Source: Aliivibrio sifiae
GTDB taxonomy: Bacteria > Pseudomonadota > Gammaproteobacteria > Enterobacterales > Vibrionaceae
DNA: 64,000 nucleotides
Assembly (NCBI RefSeq): GCF_002954715.1
Contig: NZ_MSCP01000001.1
Coordinates: forward strand, 1,087,453 to 1,151,452
Direction: 5' to 3'
The notes below the pieces were generated by a model. It had not been told where the DNA came from. It was given only the letters and a program-made list of their open reading frames with translations, and did not search any database. Shown here piece after piece: positions 11,841 to 19,927 of the stretch (positions are counted from its first letter, which is position 1; each line of letters begins with the position of its first letter). Position numbers and translations under genes: made by a program.

Positions 11841-12986
11841 TTATATTGGGCTTTCTATCCAATTTGATAACTGTTTGGCTTGTTTTAGTGCATTGAAGTT
11901 TTGTACCACTCGTTTTCTTGCCATGCTCCCCATTTCAAATCTTTGTTCAAAGGTAAGTTTGGCAAACTGTTCAATACTATTTTTTAGTTCGATGACATTT
12001 TTTTCGTTGACTAAGTAGCCAGTCTCTGAGGTTACTATTTCTTTGCAACCCATAATATTGGTTGTAATAACTGGCGTACCAACAGCCATGGCCTCTTTCA
12101 GTACTAGTGGACCAGTATCAACACATCCTGTTTGAGAAAAGCAAAAAGGGGCGACTAGACAGTCGTATTTTGATAAGTTTTCTTTTACCCATCGATGTGG
12201 TTTTGAACCTAAGAAACGTACGTGGTTTGATAAACCTTTACGTATTACTTGCTCTTTTAATTGCACTTCCATTTCCCCCGTACCAGCAATATCTAAATGA
12301 ATATTGAGGCGTTTAGCTATGGGCGCAAGAGCATCAATTAAATGATGAATTCCTTTTTGTTGAACTAATCGACCAAGAAATACAAAGCTTAAATGATCAG
12401 AAGGTTTTTTATCTTCCATTACAAATTGATCTGTTTTTACACCACAATGTAAGAGTTTGATGTTGCCTGCCGCCATTTTTTCAAAATCATTCTTCATGTC
12501 TTTGCAAACGGTAACAACAAAGTCACTGGCTAAGATCTTCTTGTCGATATCATAAGCGGTTTCATAAACATCATGACCATGGGCTACAAATGAACAGGTA
12601 ATATTAAGGAATTTAGCTGCAACAATCGCGTGAGCCGCAGTGTGTTGGCAAAAGTGAGCATGAATATGTTCAGCTTTTATGTCAGCAAGTTGTAGAGCCA
12701 ATTTTAATCCGTAGTTAAAAAGAGATCTCTTAGGTAAATGCTTTTGTTCACGAATGAATTTTATCGCTTCTAGAGCTCCCGACAGATGAAGATTCTTATA
12801 CATATCTGTCTGTATATTTTTACCTATTTGAATAACGTTATAATCAAATTCATGTTGATAATCTTCAATTTCAAACGTTAATACGCATACGTCATGTCCG
12901 CATGCCTTAATAGCGTCAACTTCCGTTTGAATGAAGGTTTCACTAAGAACAGGATAGGTTGGAGCGATAAAAGCCACTTTCTTCAT
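11841..12986 (-). CDS. Glycosyltransferase family 4
   Basis: This GT-B fold transferase of 381 aa moves a sugar from a nucleotide donor to a growing glycan in the cytoplasm. The N-terminal domain has FIAPTYPVLSETFIQTEVDA, and HIHAHFCQHTAAHA lies near residue 115. The C-terminal domain has the FLGRLVQQKGIHHLIDAL donor loop and LKEAMAVGTPVITT, the GT4 EX7E-type region. The ATG at 12986 is preferred because AGAGG is 6 nt away; the ATG at 12992 is too close. A sigma-54-like promoter lies 34 bp upstream. The sugar and acceptor are unknown. Confidence 0.9.
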   Translation of the reverse strand: MKKVAFIAPTYPVLSETFIQTEVDAIKACGHDVCVLTFEIEDYQHEFDYNVIQIGKNIQTDMYKNLHLSGALEAIKFIREQKHLPKRSLFNYGLKLALQLADIKAEHIHAHFCQHTAAHAIVAAKFLNITCSFVAHGHDVYETAYDIDKKILASDFVVTVCKDMKNDFEKMAAGNIKLLHCGVKTDQFVMEDKKPSDHLSFVFLGRLVQQKGIHHLIDALAPIAKRLNIHLDIAGTGEMEVQLKEQVIRKGLSNHVRFLGSKPHRWVKENLSKYDCLVAPFCFSQTGCVDTGPLVLKEAMAVGTPVITTNIMGCKEIVTSETGYLVNEKNVIELKNSIEQFAKLTFEQRFEMGSMARKRVVQNFNALKQAKQLSNWIESPI

Positions 12987-13019
12987 ATTCATATCCTCTA
13001 ATACTGACTAAGTAATTAA

Positions 13020-13035
13020 AGCAAAATATACGCCA
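13020..13035 (-). promoter_or_regulatory. Sigma-54-type promoter for the GT4 gene
   Basis: On the minus strand, TGGCGTATATTTTGCT has the GG of the -24 box and GC of the -12 box at the correct distance. It matches the consensus TGGCACG-N4-TTGCW at 9 of 12 positions. Transcription would start near 13010, leaving a short leader before the ATG at 12986. Confidence 0.55.
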
Positions 13036-13077
13036 TTAATTATGTTGTTAAATATCAGCGGGTTACTTAAGTATCTT

Positions 13078-13113
13078 TTGATTGTGTGTTGTTATTCTCA
13101 ATATGACAATCAA
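13078..13113. promoter_or_regulatory. Dyad containing a SypG-like enhancer
   Basis: TTGATTGT at 13078-13085 and ACAATCAA at 13106-13113 are a perfect inverted repeat. Between and over its right arm lies TTCTCA-ATA-TG at 13095-13105, which matches the core of the V. fischeri SypG enhancer (TTCTCA-N3-TGC...) except for the last C, as I recall that consensus. It is about 60 and 93 bp from the two sigma-54-like promoters. Confidence 0.5.
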
Positions 13114-13201
13114 TATGAAATGATTCTGGCTGTATTGTTTACTTCAGATATGCATTTTAAGAAAAATAGAAATAGCATAATAAATTCAATGAATTATGTT
13201 C

Positions 13202-13217
13202 TGGCATGCTTTCTGCT
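13202..13217 (+). promoter_or_regulatory. Sigma-54-type promoter for the GT2 operon
   Basis: TGGCATGCTTTCTGCT matches TGGCACG-N4-TTGCW at 10 of 12 positions, with GG and GC correctly spaced. Transcription would start near 13228, 27 bp before the ATG at 13255. Confidence 0.6.
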
Positions 13218-13254
13218 GTAATCAATTATTACTTCAGTGTTTAGGGATAAAATT

Positions 13255-14178
13255 ATGGCGAAGGTATCGATCATCATTCCAACGTATAACTGCTTAGTTT
13301 TTCTACCTACAGCGATAGAAAGTGTATTAGCGCAAGCACACCAAGATTTTGAATTATTGATCATCAATGATAATAGTACTGATGGTACGGCAAGCTATCT
13401 AAATAAATTAATGGATAAAAGAATTATAACGATAACGACCAATGGTGTCGGCGCTGCTCAGGCAAGGAACTTAGGAATCGCGAAAGCATCTGGTGAATTT
13501 ATTGCATTTTTAGATGCCGATGATTTCTGGTTACCAGAAAAATTATCATTGCAATTAGCTCTGCATGCTGATTCTCCAAATCTAGCGATGAGCTTCACCA
13601 ATTATGATCATTTAACTGAAAGTTATGAGTCAATAGTCGATTGTTTTGGTTATTGGGATCAATTTCAGGGACAAGATGAACAGTTTATCACGCTTAAAAA
13701 TCCGCTCGATTTCATTATAAGAAATAACATTATAGGCACGTCGACGGTAATGGTGAAAGCTGAGATTTTAACTCAGATGCATCGATTTAATGAAGATTTG
13801 AAATATGGTGAAGATTGGGAGTTATGGCTAAGAATATGTGAAAAGCATGGTGTTGGCATATTGAATTCCATTCAAACAGGTTATTTAATGCGTCAGAATT
13901 CAACGACACAAACCGATGGGTTACGACTTAGGAATCTTCGATGTATCGAGTTGATTTTAAGTCGTTATCAAGAAGAAAAACACCATTGGAACTTATCTTC
14001 TTCAGCTCTTAATAATGCCCGAGCGAGGATATTAGAGGGATACGCTGATTATCATCGTGGTTTGTGCCAACATAGCACGGCAATAACGTATGGTATTTAT
14101 TCTTTATTCCTTGCTCCTCAAAAAAGAAGGGTTCGCAGTTTACTTGGTGATTGTAAAAGTATGTTATTGCCGGTTTAA
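13255..14178 (+). CDS. Glycosyltransferase family 2
   Basis: This GT-A fold transferase of about 307 aa has VSIIIPTYNCLVFLPTAIES at the N-terminus and the donor-binding DADDF near residue 90. The catalytic region KYGEDWELWLRI supplies the acidic ED motif. The rest is a helical C-terminal extension without membrane segments. The ATG at 13255 is chosen over the GTG at 13237 because AGGGA lies about 8 nt before it. The flippase follows after 12 bp, so the two form an operon. It would add a sugar to a lipid-linked repeat unit. Confidence 0.9.
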   Translation: MAKVSIIIPTYNCLVFLPTAIESVLAQAHQDFELLIINDNSTDGTASYLNKLMDKRIITITTNGVGAAQARNLGIAKASGEFIAFLDADDFWLPEKLSLQLALHADSPNLAMSFTNYDHLTESYESIVDCFGYWDQFQGQDEQFITLKNPLDFIIRNNIIGTSTVMVKAEILTQMHRFNEDLKYGEDWELWLRICEKHGVGILNSIQTGYLMRQNSTTQTDGLRLRNLRCIELILSRYQEEKHHWNLSSSALNNARARILEGYADYHRGLCQHSTAITYGIYSLFLAPQKRRVRSLLGDCKSMLLPV

Positions 14179-14190
14179 GAGGAAGATAGA

Positions 14191-15609
14191 ATGAGTTCAC
14201 TCAAACAATCAGCCTATTACGCGGTTGGGATATTAATGATGAAGGGGATCTCTCTTGTGATGATCCCTTATATCACCCATAAAATGACACTTGAAGAATA
14301 CGGTTCTTTAGAGTCTTTAGTATTACTTGCCGACATCGGAACCATCTTGTTTGGTTTTGGTATTGTGGATGCAATGTATCGTTATGTTGGGGTTGCGAAA
14401 GGAGAGGATAAACGTAAGTTAATATCAAACTGTTTTACGTTAAGTGTGTTTGTTTGTCTGCTCGGTGGGTTATTAATAGCAATTAGTTTGCCCGCCTTAT
14501 TGCTAGTATTGCCAGTTAAATTTTCTGCCTATCAAATATTTCTTCTGCTTATTCCTACGATGCTTGATGGTGTTATCTCGATACCGTTGACCTTGTTGAG
14601 GATGAATGCGATGGCCAAACGTTTTTGTTTTTTAAACGTATTTAAGGGAATAATACAGGCGTTGATGACATTTTCTCTGTTAGAAGCGGGGTATGGTATT
14701 GATGGTGTACTTATCTCTGGTGCCGTATCAAGTATCCTCTTACTGATATGTTTATTGAGTTACCAATGGCAAGAAATGGGAAAGTTTGGTTATTTAAAAT
14801 CATCTAAGTTGGTATTGAGTTTCGGATTACCGGTATTGGTTGGTGGCGCGTCTGTATATATGATTAATGGATTAGATCGTTGGTTTTTAGCAAGCTTCAT
14901 CGGAGTTGAGGAATTGGCTGTTTATGCCGTTAGTGCTAAATTTGCGTTGATATTAGGGCTTATTCTTCAACCTTATGCGTTGTGGTGGTTTCCTAATCGG
15001 GTATCTATATTACAGCTTGAGAATGGAAAGAAAAAATGTGCAGATAAGGCGTTACTTGGCGTAAACATAGGTATCGTTATGGGGACTTTGTTGATCCTTA
15101 CTGTTCCCGGATTAATTATGATTATTTTACCGAGTAGCTATCATTTAGCGGGAACAATCGCCGTGGTTTTATTGGCAATTGGCATGATAAAAAACGCAGG
15201 GGACTATTTGAATTTAGGGTGTTACAGCGGTAATTCGAGTCAATCTCAAATGTGGATACAAGGTATTTGTGCCATTGTTGCTGCCGTTGGTTATTTTGTT
15301 ATCACACCAATGTTTGGTTTATGGGGGGTGGTTGGTGTGCTTGCTACAGCCTATACATTGCGCTTGGTGTTGTTATACATGGCAAGTCAATCGATGGAGT
15401 TTCTTCCTTATGAGCATTCAAAATGGCTCACTTGCATCGTGATTGCTTTTTTTGCGATTACATTGAATCATTTTCTGGGAAATGTATTTACAGGAATACC
15501 AGAGATTGTCACTGGGGTTGGGGTGAGTTTACTTGCATTGTTTAGTTTTGTTAAGAGTGCTGTTATTCCTTTGTCTGATACGACGATCATGAAGTCCAAA
15601 CCAAGTTGA
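14191..15609 (+). CDS. Polysaccharide flippase, Wzx/MOP-like
   Basis: This 472-aa protein has about 12-14 hydrophobic segments and the start YYAVGILMMKGISLVMIPYI, typical of the polysaccharide-transporter branch of the MOP superfamily. Such proteins move lipid-linked oligosaccharide units across the inner membrane. A GAGGAAGA ribosome binding site precedes the ATG. It lies just after a GT2 gene and before an EamA transporter. No polymerase (Wzy) or chain-length protein is visible nearby, so the locus may be an accessory part of a larger system or a modification unit. Confidence 0.85.
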   Translation: MSSLKQSAYYAVGILMMKGISLVMIPYITHKMTLEEYGSLESLVLLADIGTILFGFGIVDAMYRYVGVAKGEDKRKLISNCFTLSVFVCLLGGLLIAISLPALLLVLPVKFSAYQIFLLLIPTMLDGVISIPLTLLRMNAMAKRFCFLNVFKGIIQALMTFSLLEAGYGIDGVLISGAVSSILLLICLLSYQWQEMGKFGYLKSSKLVLSFGLPVLVGGASVYMINGLDRWFLASFIGVEELAVYAVSAKFALILGLILQPYALWWFPNRVSILQLENGKKKCADKALLGVNIGIVMGTLLILTVPGLIMIILPSSYHLAGTIAVVLLAIGMIKNAGDYLNLGCYSGNSSQSQMWIQGICAIVAAVGYFVITPMFGLWGVVGVLATAYTLRLVLLYMASQSMEFLPYEHSKWLTCIVIAFFAITLNHFLGNVFTGIPEIVTGVGVSLLALFSFVKSAVIPLSDTTIMKSKPS

Positions 15610-17116: not shown

Positions 17117-19588
17117 TTAATAGAATGTAGCGTAGACATCCACTAAATTATCAGGTTGAGAGGCTGTTACTGAGAAATAAACGTAACCTGCTTTCTCAAC
17201 GTTCATTTCAATGAATTTGTTACTTGCTTTACCTGTAGAGGAGACTTCATTTTGGATCTCTGTTGGCCAATAACCTTTAGCTGCATAGAGATTAATATCA
17301 CCTTTATTTACATTTGCTGCTGATTTTTTCTTATCAACCCAAATACGGACAGTTTGCTCATCCTTTGGAACATATAATGCTAAATAACGCTGTTTATTAA
17401 TTATGATGTCTGTTGCAAGATTATTATCTAGTAGGATCGGTTTTAAATTATCAGATGGCATTGAAGGAGTCGTGGACGTACTCTTAGTGTCTACATTAAC
17501 CGCCAAAGTCACTTCTTTAAACGCTTCTCGTGCTGCGACACTAAAATAATAGCGACCGACTTTAAGGGGTATACTGGTATTATGTGATGTAAATTGAATG
17601 TTTTCATCGCTACCATGTTGAAAGTTACTTGTTTCATAATCATAGTAATGAGCGACTTTATTGAAACTTGCATATAAATCGGCATCACCATCTCCATTGA
17701 TAGATACAGACACGACTGCTGCATCTGATGTGACATCAAAATAAAATAATTGCTCATTATAAATTTCTGACGATAGTGTAATGGTTGTATTTGCACTTAG
17801 TGCAGTCATCGTTTCTGAAGGTTGTGTTGGTTTTTGCTGCTCATTGGTTTCTTTGTTATCAGGTGTCGTTTCATCAATTACAGTGTCCAACCATAGATTG
17901 AATTCATTGTCGTATTGTTCTCCAATGTTTATTACTTTTCTTGCCCATTCTTTATAATCACCTTCGCGAGAGAGTGTTAATAAAATGTTGACATCTTCAG
18001 GGTGGTTATCGATAAGAAAACGAACGGCTAGATAGCCCCAACGATAGACTCGATCAGTATTATGATCATAGGTTGTCGCCAATACGTCAGATAAACGATA
18101 GGTTTTTTCTCGTCCAATTTGAATAGCTGCACTGTAACTGTTTTTATAAGACATGTACTCAGCGAAACCTTCTAACCACCAAATGATATAGCCTTCACGT
18201 AAATTCTCGTTAAAGCTACCATGTTGGTTAAAACGACCATCTAGATAATGTATGTATTCGTGTTCAAGGTTTAAGATAGAAAACCCTTTCTCATTATCTT
18301 GGCGATAAGCAATAAAACGAGCTTGATTATTTATATTGCTTGGTAAGCCTTCAAGATATTGCCCACCATTGTTTGTGGTATTCCCAAATAGGAAAGAAGA
18401 ATAAGTAACATAATCAGCATGACTATCAAATACAGCAACTTCGACACTATCGTTTAGATCATCGTTGACTGGACGATAACCACTATTAGTAACTAGGTGA
18501 AAATCAGCTTCTTTTGCATTTAATGTGTCACAACTCATTTGAGCTTGCTCTTGAGTCATATTTTGACCACGAATGATTGCAGGACCATCGCATTCATAGT
18601 TTAAGGTAATAATACGTTGTTCTAATTCGCTTTTTGCATTTTCAAGACCAAATTCTGCTGCTCTATCTGGGGCGAAATAGTTTATCATTTCTGCTATACC
18701 AACCCACATTTTATCGCTCTTACCCCCTAATGGATAACGATCTAATAAGTCTTTTAAAATGGTAAATACTTGCTGACGAGTACTGGTGTGTGGGCTTGCA
18801 AGTAAACGTCCCATTTCACGGCCAGCATTAGTGACTAAGAACCCTGAACCAGTTTTTAAGGCCCATTCTTTATTTAAGATAAACTGATGTAATTGTGTAA
18901 GATATTCAGGGTGGGCTTGTAGATTATCGTAATATGTTTGTATGCCAGAGTGCCCACTCATTGCCTGAAACAATACATTTAAGTTTTTCTGATTTTCCCA
19001 ACTCTCTGCGTTTTCAACTGTAAGAGAATCTAATAAGTGTACAAGAGAACCCATGATTGAAGGTAATTTACGAATACTGTCAATCATATAGATCATACTG
19101 TGCATCGCGCTTGCTTGCTTCTGTCCTTTTGCCATCGCTTGTGGATGAGCAATAAAAGATTGAATACTTGCAGCCAATTGCATATCAAGTTGTTCAGAAT
19201 AATCGTTTAGCTCTGCTTTAAAACCATAACGAACAAAATAGGCCGCTCGAATATATTCTGATAGGTTTTCAATGCGTTTTGCTTGTGTTTCCTCACCTGT
19301 ATATTCAGTAATGCGTTGATTAAGTCGGCTGACTACTTTTTGTAATTGCGGTTCGCTATATAAGGATTCAAACATTGAACGGGGCGCATTAAACCAAGTT
19401 CTCTGACAATCGTTATTTGCAACTTCTATTTGATTGAGAAATTGGCTTGATTCTGAGATGTTCTGTATTGAACATGATTGAGATACACTTGAGTCACTAG
19501 CAAGTGTAGATGTTGAAATTAAGCTTCCTGAAATAGCAAGTGCAAGAGGAGCGATGCGGTACCAACTGCTGATGTAATTATTAATCAT
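17117..19588 (-). CDS. Secreted M9 collagenase
   Basis: This zinc metalloprotease of about 823 aa breaks triple-helical collagen. The ATG at 19588 gives a signal peptide (WYRIAPLALAISGSLISTST). The N-terminal collagenase module of about 300 residues precedes the peptidase unit, with the zinc motif LEHEYIHYLDGRF and the third ligand Glu in LEGFAEYMSY. A Thr/Gln-rich linker near residue 600 leads to two PPC domains (one beginning near TITLSSEIYNEQLFYFDV, one near DIIINKQRYLALYV). No PKD domain was seen. A longer frame to 19648 has a poor N-terminus. The enzyme is presumably secreted by type II secretion. Confidence 0.92.
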   Translation of the reverse strand: MINNYISSWYRIAPLALAISGSLISTSTLASDSSVSQSCSIQNISESSQFLNQIEVANNDCQRTWFNAPRSMFESLYSEPQLQKVVSRLNQRITEYTGEETQAKRIENLSEYIRAAYFVRYGFKAELNDYSEQLDMQLAASIQSFIAHPQAMAKGQKQASAMHSMIYMIDSIRKLPSIMGSLVHLLDSLTVENAESWENQKNLNVLFQAMSGHSGIQTYYDNLQAHPEYLTQLHQFILNKEWALKTGSGFLVTNAGREMGRLLASPHTSTRQQVFTILKDLLDRYPLGGKSDKMWVGIAEMINYFAPDRAAEFGLENAKSELEQRIITLNYECDGPAIIRGQNMTQEQAQMSCDTLNAKEADFHLVTNSGYRPVNDDLNDSVEVAVFDSHADYVTYSSFLFGNTTNNGGQYLEGLPSNINNQARFIAYRQDNEKGFSILNLEHEYIHYLDGRFNQHGSFNENLREGYIIWWLEGFAEYMSYKNSYSAAIQIGREKTYRLSDVLATTYDHNTDRVYRWGYLAVRFLIDNHPEDVNILLTLSREGDYKEWARKVINIGEQYDNEFNLWLDTVIDETTPDNKETNEQQKPTQPSETMTALSANTTITLSSEIYNEQLFYFDVTSDAAVVSVSINGDGDADLYASFNKVAHYYDYETSNFQHGSDENIQFTSHNTSIPLKVGRYYFSVAAREAFKEVTLAVNVDTKSTSTTPSMPSDNLKPILLDNNLATDIIINKQRYLALYVPKDEQTVRIWVDKKKSAANVNKGDINLYAAKGYWPTEIQNEVSSTGKASNKFIEMNVEKAGYVYFSVTASQPDNLVDVYATFY

Positions 19589-19927
19589 AGTATCTCTAGT
19601 TATTGTATATATTTTCTGGAGATGCGGTTTTATCAATAATACATTCACTATACCAATGAGTTTCTTATTATTAAGAACTCAGTTCAAGAATCATATATAT
19701 AGTAATTACACCTATTGCTTTAGATTAAATAACTGTTTTTTCTTGTTGAATTAGGGTTAATTTGATGTCTGAAAAACATAAATATCAAAATTAAATAAAT
19801 ATAAGCGTGAAAGGTGATAATAAATAATGATCAAAAAGTTAACTCTATATTAAGGGAGGGGTTGAACACTGCTAGATTGAGTTTTATTTATATTATCATT
19901 GCAATTATCGGTATAAGAGGTTGAACC
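19589..19927. other. Divergent intergenic region, collagenase and GNAT promoters
   Basis: No gene was seen. At 19628-19639, TTTTATCAATAA is half of a LuxR/LitR-type quorum-sensing site without its partner half. At 19658-19680 a GAGTT/AACTC hairpin with one bulge lies upstream of the collagenase start. The right part is plain AT-rich sequence. Confidence 0.35.

Follow-up and report, generated by a model that had tools for sequence, protein, structure and literature searches.

The 262-bp spacer between a GT4-family glycosyltransferase gene on the minus strand and a GT2-family glycosyltransferase-flippase gene pair on the plus strand harbors two outward-facing sigma-54-type promoter elements around a SypG-type enhancer site. 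It lies within the window, the whole 64-kb stretch of DNA that was analysed, which belongs to a genome of 4.74 Mb that is Aliivibrio-like, judging by its named relatives. The spacer would be the shared control point of two divergent sigma-54 promoters, both of which phosphorylated SypG is predicted to fire from a central tandem site, towards GT4 on one side and towards GT2 and the flippase on the other. The flippase and the two glycosyltransferases may represent an arm of the syp exopolysaccharide machinery that has become detached. In many species, where the syp locus lacks SypK and usually SypI and SypJ as well, this cassette would stand in for them. In Photobacterium species without SypG, the promoters appear to be paired with a LuxO-type site, and the cassette there would therefore answer to quorum sensing. 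A divergent module fired by SypG and driving a detached syp arm, with the LuxO-type case of Photobacterium included, is probably the best explanation. The promoters, the enhancer site, their conservation, their resemblance to syp promoters and the way in which SypK and the cassette flippase nearly exclude each other were read from the sequence; we infer from them that SypG binds, that sigma-54 transcribes the genes and that SYP assembly uses the cassette products.

Divergent sigma-54-type promoter elements

The cassette comprises the genes for the GT4-family glycosyltransferase (11841..12992, minus strand; Pfam Glycos_transf_1 and Glyco_transf_4), the GT2-family glycosyltransferase (13255..14178, plus strand; Pfam Glycos_transf_2) and a polysaccharide flippase of the Wzx/Polysacc_synt kind (14191..15609, plus strand; Pfam Polysacc_synt). 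No NCBIfam family scored above cut-off for the cassette proteins. The first ATG of the GT4 gene is at 12992 and the start conserved in alignments at 12986; for GT2 the ATG at 13255 is conserved, and the list of open reading frames gives a GTG at 13237.

Promoter elements were scored against the sigma-54 consensus TGGCACGNNNNTTGCW. The plus-strand element TGGCATGCTTTCTGCT at 13202-13217, which faces GT2 and the flippase, matches in 10 of 12 positions, and the minus-strand element TGGCGTATATTTTGCT at 13035-13020, which faces GT4, in 9 of 12. The GG at -24 and the GC at -12 are invariant in both and stand at fixed spacing. Thus, the two outward elements of the original prediction were recovered in place and with the proposed scores. 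The plus element is the sole match of at least 10/12 in the 64-kb window when both strands are searched and GG and GC are required. Among 20,000 dinucleotide shuffles of the 262-bp region, with leaders limited to 10-100 nt, a plus element of at least 10/12 arose in 0.21% and a minus element of at least 9/12 in 0.32%, and both together in none (0/20,000). With transcript start points inferred from the -12 positions, the leader measures about 27 nt on the GT2 side (ATG at 13255) and about 17-23 nt on the GT4 side (start at 12992 or 12986), in agreement with the short leader that had been proposed for each gene.

The SypG-type enhancer site

Between the two elements lies the SypG-type site TTCTCAATATGACAA (13095-13109; contig positions 1100547-1100561), which is conserved in the orthologues and within which the predicted TTCTCA-N3-TG core was found at 13095-13105. 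It matches 11 of 12 positions of TTCTCANNNTGAGAA, the palindrome of the syp promoters of the same genome, with one mismatch; a match of 11/12 occurred in 0.1% of 20,000 dinucleotide shuffles. Compared with the published SypG UAS consensus TTCTCANNNTGMDWN, as quoted in PMC10162802, the site shows a single departure, a C at the D position. A second, weaker tandem site (13107..13121; core TCAATATGA at 13110-13118) is located 12 bp from the first and is kept in Aliivibrio and some of the Vibrio loci. What is conserved is a block of about 26 bp in which TCAATATGA stands as a direct repeat, at 13098-13106 and 13110-13118. The 8-bp dyad described earlier (13078-13085 and 13106-13113) is exact, but it was rejected as an operator because conservation among the orthologous regions does not extend to its left arm; only the right arm overlaps the conserved block.

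Searching the window's genome with TTCTCANNNTGANAA yielded 10 places, namely four syp promoters, five positions in long open frames (247-863 aa, measured from stop to stop and not proven genes) and the site described here. All intergenic matches are syp promoters or the site at 13095. The reversed pattern, used as a control, gave one forward and one reverse match. The syp promoters of 11 species bear the same type of site. A co-evolutionary change from TTCTCA to TTGTCA in Enterovibrio, which had been noted first, was not retained, since both forms are found at syp promoters and TTGTCANNNTGAGAA is TTCTCANNNTGACAA reversed.

The distances between site and promoter match in helical phase between syp and cassette promoters at a period of about 10.8-11, with phases of 9.4 and 10.2, respectively, at period 10.8. 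In the first phase test, eight syp and four cassette rows were dropped, near-duplicate loci being left out. With no row dropped, R at period 10.8 was 0.59 for the syp promoters (n=47), 0.81 for nine cassette loci (n=35) and 0.76 for all 30 loci (n=104), values that refer to partly non-independent distances and to a period that is not sharply fixed, the syp distances peaking near 11.5. That SypG drives the divergent promoters is well supported by these sequence comparisons. The proposed bidirectional sigma-54-type module around a SypG-type enhancer also gained support, and the genome itself carries a syp locus with sypG.

Conservation of the module

Orthologous divergent pairs are present in four other Aliivibrio genomes and in Enterovibrio. 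In addition, 28 named loci were compiled from Aliivibrio, Vibrio, Enterovibrio and Photobacterium, some of them from the same genomes as the orthologous pairs. GT2 is divergent from GT4 in 28/28 of these loci and the flippase follows in 26/28. A more distant pair (L026) is without both sigma-54-type elements. The window, the 28 named loci and G003 constitute 30 homologous regions; counts over them are not independent, because the regions are related. Both elements at 8/12 or better with a leader of 10-100 nt occur in 28 of the 30 regions, compared to 0.02 expected. An element of at least 9/12 faces GT4 in every region (30/30), and one of at least 8/12 faces GT2 in 28, the misses being L145 and L169. 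The enhancer site matches the syp palindrome in at least 10/12 positions in 22 regions against an expectation of 0.66; it is missed in L157 and L161, which reach 9/12 with a TCANNNTGA core, and in six Photobacterium regions.

A SypG orthologue at 62-100% was detected in 23 of the 30 genomes, the window's genome included and G064 with a partial match. The other seven genomes, which are A. sifiae (genome G006, locus L168) and the six Photobacterium, show only a LuxO-like match of 49-51%. In V. splendidus 12E03 (G064, locus L195) the SypG match is confined to residues 165-492 in a frame of 346 aa, which could reflect a truncated sypG or a break in the assembly.

The diguanylate cyclase gene, which the original prediction had mentioned as lying next to the glycan locus, gave no match beside the cassette in the named loci (0/28) and was rejected as a cassette gene, as was an EamA gene that is adjacent in one of the 28 (L159). 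No terminator was found between GT4 and the cyclase or 3' of the flippase. In P. profundum (L165) a conserved polysaccharide gene past the cassette was considered and rejected; the neighbors there encode a dehydrogenase, an aminotransferase, a LysR regulator, an ABC protein and one protein without family. In the window, a gene for a secreted protease of the collagenase family (M9) is located at 17117-19648 on the minus strand, after the genes downstream of the cassette.

Distribution of SypK and the cassette flippase

SypK, the Wzx of the syp/eps/scv locus, is of the same broad protein kind as the cassette flippase, but the two are only about 31% identical in the window's genome (SypK at L050, 12872-14305), and the gene of the latter sits in an unlinked cassette. 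Their distribution is nearly exclusive. In 33 genomes whose SypG reaches at least 62%, the syp stretches were searched by a profile built from flippases, absence of SypK being judged on stretches of 11.7-20 kb. A cassette-flippase orthologue is present in 22 of these genomes and absent in 11. No SypK was detected in 20 of the 22, whereas each of the 11 has one (table [[20,2],[0,11]]; Fisher 4e-7). Both flippases occur together in the window's genome and in Enterovibrio; here, and in G111 of the wider sample described below, the cassette is therefore not needed to make up for a missing SypK. V. genomosp. F10 and V. amylolyticus possess GT4 and GT2 without the cassette flippase, and SypK is present in both. 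G035, with neither SypK nor GT4, was an apparent exception until a cassette-flippase orthologue (70%) was found in it, located beside GT2 and preceded by a sigma-54-type element and sites. The pattern holds within Aliivibrio and within Vibrio separately. The set of 33 leaves out G015, G032 and G033 (SypG 56-60%) as well as G048 and G053 (SypG-like, 52-58%); a flippase is present in the syp stretch of G032, and none was found in those of G015 and G033.

The contrast recurs among 256 genomes of the family, in which cassette-type flippases were defined by a cut-off of E <= 2.4e-144. A second match at E <= 1e-20 is lacking in 44 of the 47 genomes with such a flippase, the others being the window's genome (G000), G036 and G111. 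A SypK-like match at E <= 1e-20, counted irrespective of its place in the genome, is carried by 126 of the 209 genomes without one (Fisher 1.8e-12). The gap between sypG and the Wzy gene amounts to about 1.2-1.6 kb in 16 of 19 SypK-less genomes and to 2.4, 2.5 and 3.4 kb in G013, G077 and G070, compared to 3.9-5.2 kb in 12 SypK-bearing genomes with a Wzy match; no Wzy match was found in the SypK-less G081 or in Enterovibrio. This shorter gap indicates that SypI and SypJ are usually missing too where SypK is. On a weakly supported SypG tree, one flippase trait changes five times and the other six times. There are two independent pairs on starred branches and five on all branches, none of which go the same way, and with few independent origins the sign test on these pairs is not significant (median p 0.5).

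Published surveys contain corresponding absences. According to PMC5801674, K is lacking in 15 species, which were inferred to be unable to export the polysaccharide, and 12 clusters have neither I nor J. PMC8941931 notes absent scvG and scvI as divergence and describes scv genes lying 15-1,612 kb apart in three Vibrio species; these scattered genes partly foreshadow an unlinked arm. The original prediction of a second glycan locus is changed here, since the distribution of the two flippases suggests an arm that has split off from the syp pathway itself. Of two readings, the one in which the cassette supplies the missing arm of SYP is the likelier, and it is fairly probable. If it is true, the SypG regulon gains a biosynthetic unit, and species thought unable to export SYP can do so. 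With the flippase gene in a cassette that is unlinked but answers to the same activator, the no-export conclusions of PMC5801674 for the 15 species would change, and the absences recorded as divergence in PMC8941931 would be reinterpreted.

Sites in genomes without SypG

Where SypG is absent, the SypG-type site is gone in all six Photobacterium regions and kept in A. sifiae. In Photobacterium it is replaced by a LuxO-type site. The exact sequence TTGCANNNTGCAA lies upstream of the sigma-54-type element in L162, L163, L165 and L169, and TCGCATTCTGCAA, which has one mismatch, is found in L166 and L167. The P. obscurum cassette shows no GT2-side element at 8/12 or better. The pattern TTGCAWWWTGCAA occurs in three places in P. 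frigidiphilum, two in P. indicum and four in P. obscurum, the cassette being one of them each time, and another of the places in P. obscurum is at a Qrr gene. Reversed-pattern controls gave one, three and one forward matches, respectively; as the control count exceeds the real count in P. indicum, rarity alone is no proof of function. In its DNA-binding end LuxO is the regulator closest to SypG, with scores of 123 in the window's genome and 127 in A. sifiae, whereas the other regulators compared do not exceed 59 (12 of 13 and 10 of 11 loci scored, respectively). A swap from a SypG to a LuxO site in Photobacterium is plausible and somewhat favored by these data, and it would provide a natural example in which an enhancer passes from one activator to its paralogue. 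For the more far-reaching proposal, in which the module was re-wired between the sister activators SypG and LuxO and the cassette under SypG carries the working Wzx of SYP together with two transferases, making export possible, the balance is even.

Further LuxO-type sites were observed outside the cassette. In P. obscurum, a second one (L227:1501-1513) is followed after 74 bp by a 10/12 sigma-54 element and an open frame; a molybdenum-cofactor riboswitch is nearby on the opposite strand. P. frigidiphilum and P. indicum have an intergenic TTGCAAATTGCAA in common (position 1501 of L225 and L226), near which neither a sigma-54 element of at least 9/12 nor a Qrr match was found.

A. sifiae G006 (L168) possesses the cassette with the site TTCTCAAAATGACAA, a form shared with syp promoters of V. 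crassostreae and Enterovibrio. Except for weak matches to the ATPase region of sypG, this genome yielded no syp DNA. Purifying selection acts on its cassette genes (dN/dS 0.056-0.109 in computable pairs), and 55 of 58 motif positions are identical to those of the window, compared to 137 of 204 other positions. Because the site is kept without syp, a factor other than SypG may use it or the loss may be recent. LuxO might serve the site in A. sifiae.

Alternative explanations

Another enhancer-binding protein, LuxO foremost, could be the main activator, with SypG contributing where it is present. LuxO is the nearest SypG paralogue in the DNA-binding end, its type of site stands in the six Photobacterium regions, A. 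sifiae retains its site without SypG, and both proteins share sites at V. fischeri qrr1 according to PMC10162802. However, the Aliivibrio site is far from TTGCAWWWTGCAA, which occurs only beside qrr and luxO in the window's genome and in A. sifiae, and the palindrome TTCTCANNNTGAGAA is absent in the SypG-less Aliivibrio genomes G006 and G012; a leading role of LuxO is thus rather unlikely. Use of the site by VpsR, which is not known to require sigma-54, or by another regulator linked to c-di-GMP is much less likely still. The diguanylate cyclase gene downstream of GT4 would fit such a regulator, and PMC10804989 reports VpsR control of other V. fischeri exopolysaccharide genes independently of SypG, but the cyclase accompanies the cassette in none of the 28 named loci and no VpsR site for comparison was found in the literature searched. 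A chance resemblance in an AT-rich spacer that is transcribed from sigma-70 promoters has a very slight probability. The region does contain three sigma-70-like sites, near the shuffled mean of 2.0, but the shuffle results and the joint conservation speak against this possibility, and conservation already contradicts it.

A different objection leaves SypG in control of the promoters. The cassette could make or modify a different glycan that is co-expressed with SYP, and the inverse pattern of SypK would then reflect clade history. The window's genome and Enterovibrio hold both flippases, the tree-corrected test is not significant, and the cassette is also present in Photobacterium and A. sifiae, which are without SypG or syp, as would be expected of a separate glycan. 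On the other hand, the pattern recurs inside Aliivibrio and Vibrio, SypK is kept in V. genomosp. F10 and V. amylolyticus exactly where the cassette is without its flippase, and the flippase of G035 was predicted by the pattern before it was found. A separate glycan is therefore regarded as improbable, and a detached arm of the syp pathway is preferred.

Comparison with known systems

The syp promoters of V. fischeri, which belong to four SypG-dependent, sigma-54-dependent operons, likewise combine -24/-12 elements with an upstream site of the TTCTCANNNTG type, and those of the window's genome and other genomes agree with the cassette in spacing and helical register. Unlike them, the cassette has one enhancer region, with two sites 12 bp apart, for two divergent promoters, and it is located away from the syp locus on another contig. 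The syp locus of the window's genome (L050) contains sypG, and its promoters carry sites of the TTCTCANNNTGAGAA form. A short Hpt-domain protein (237 aa; L050:8190-8903) was observed there in the place of sypF, not a full hybrid kinase.

SypG targets outside syp are known from V. fischeri. Dependence on SypG is described for syp, bmp and bal in PMC10804989, and bmp, bal and qrr1 (PMC10804989 and PMC10162802) would be comparable to the cassette, whose targets differ in being two glycosyltransferases and a flippase. In V. fischeri, a same-species search did not recover the cassette, and the species is absent from the 28 named loci. The LuxO-dependent qrr promoters share the LuxO-type site TTGCANNNTGCAA with the Photobacterium cassette; unlike them, the cassette loci have glycan genes as targets and showed no Qrr RNA. 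No paper describing the cassette was found in the literature searched, which mostly excludes subscription journals. In a genome of another family (G037:C1:1694902-1699009), a SypG/LuxO-like regulator (47%) is encoded beside a GT4 relative (41%).
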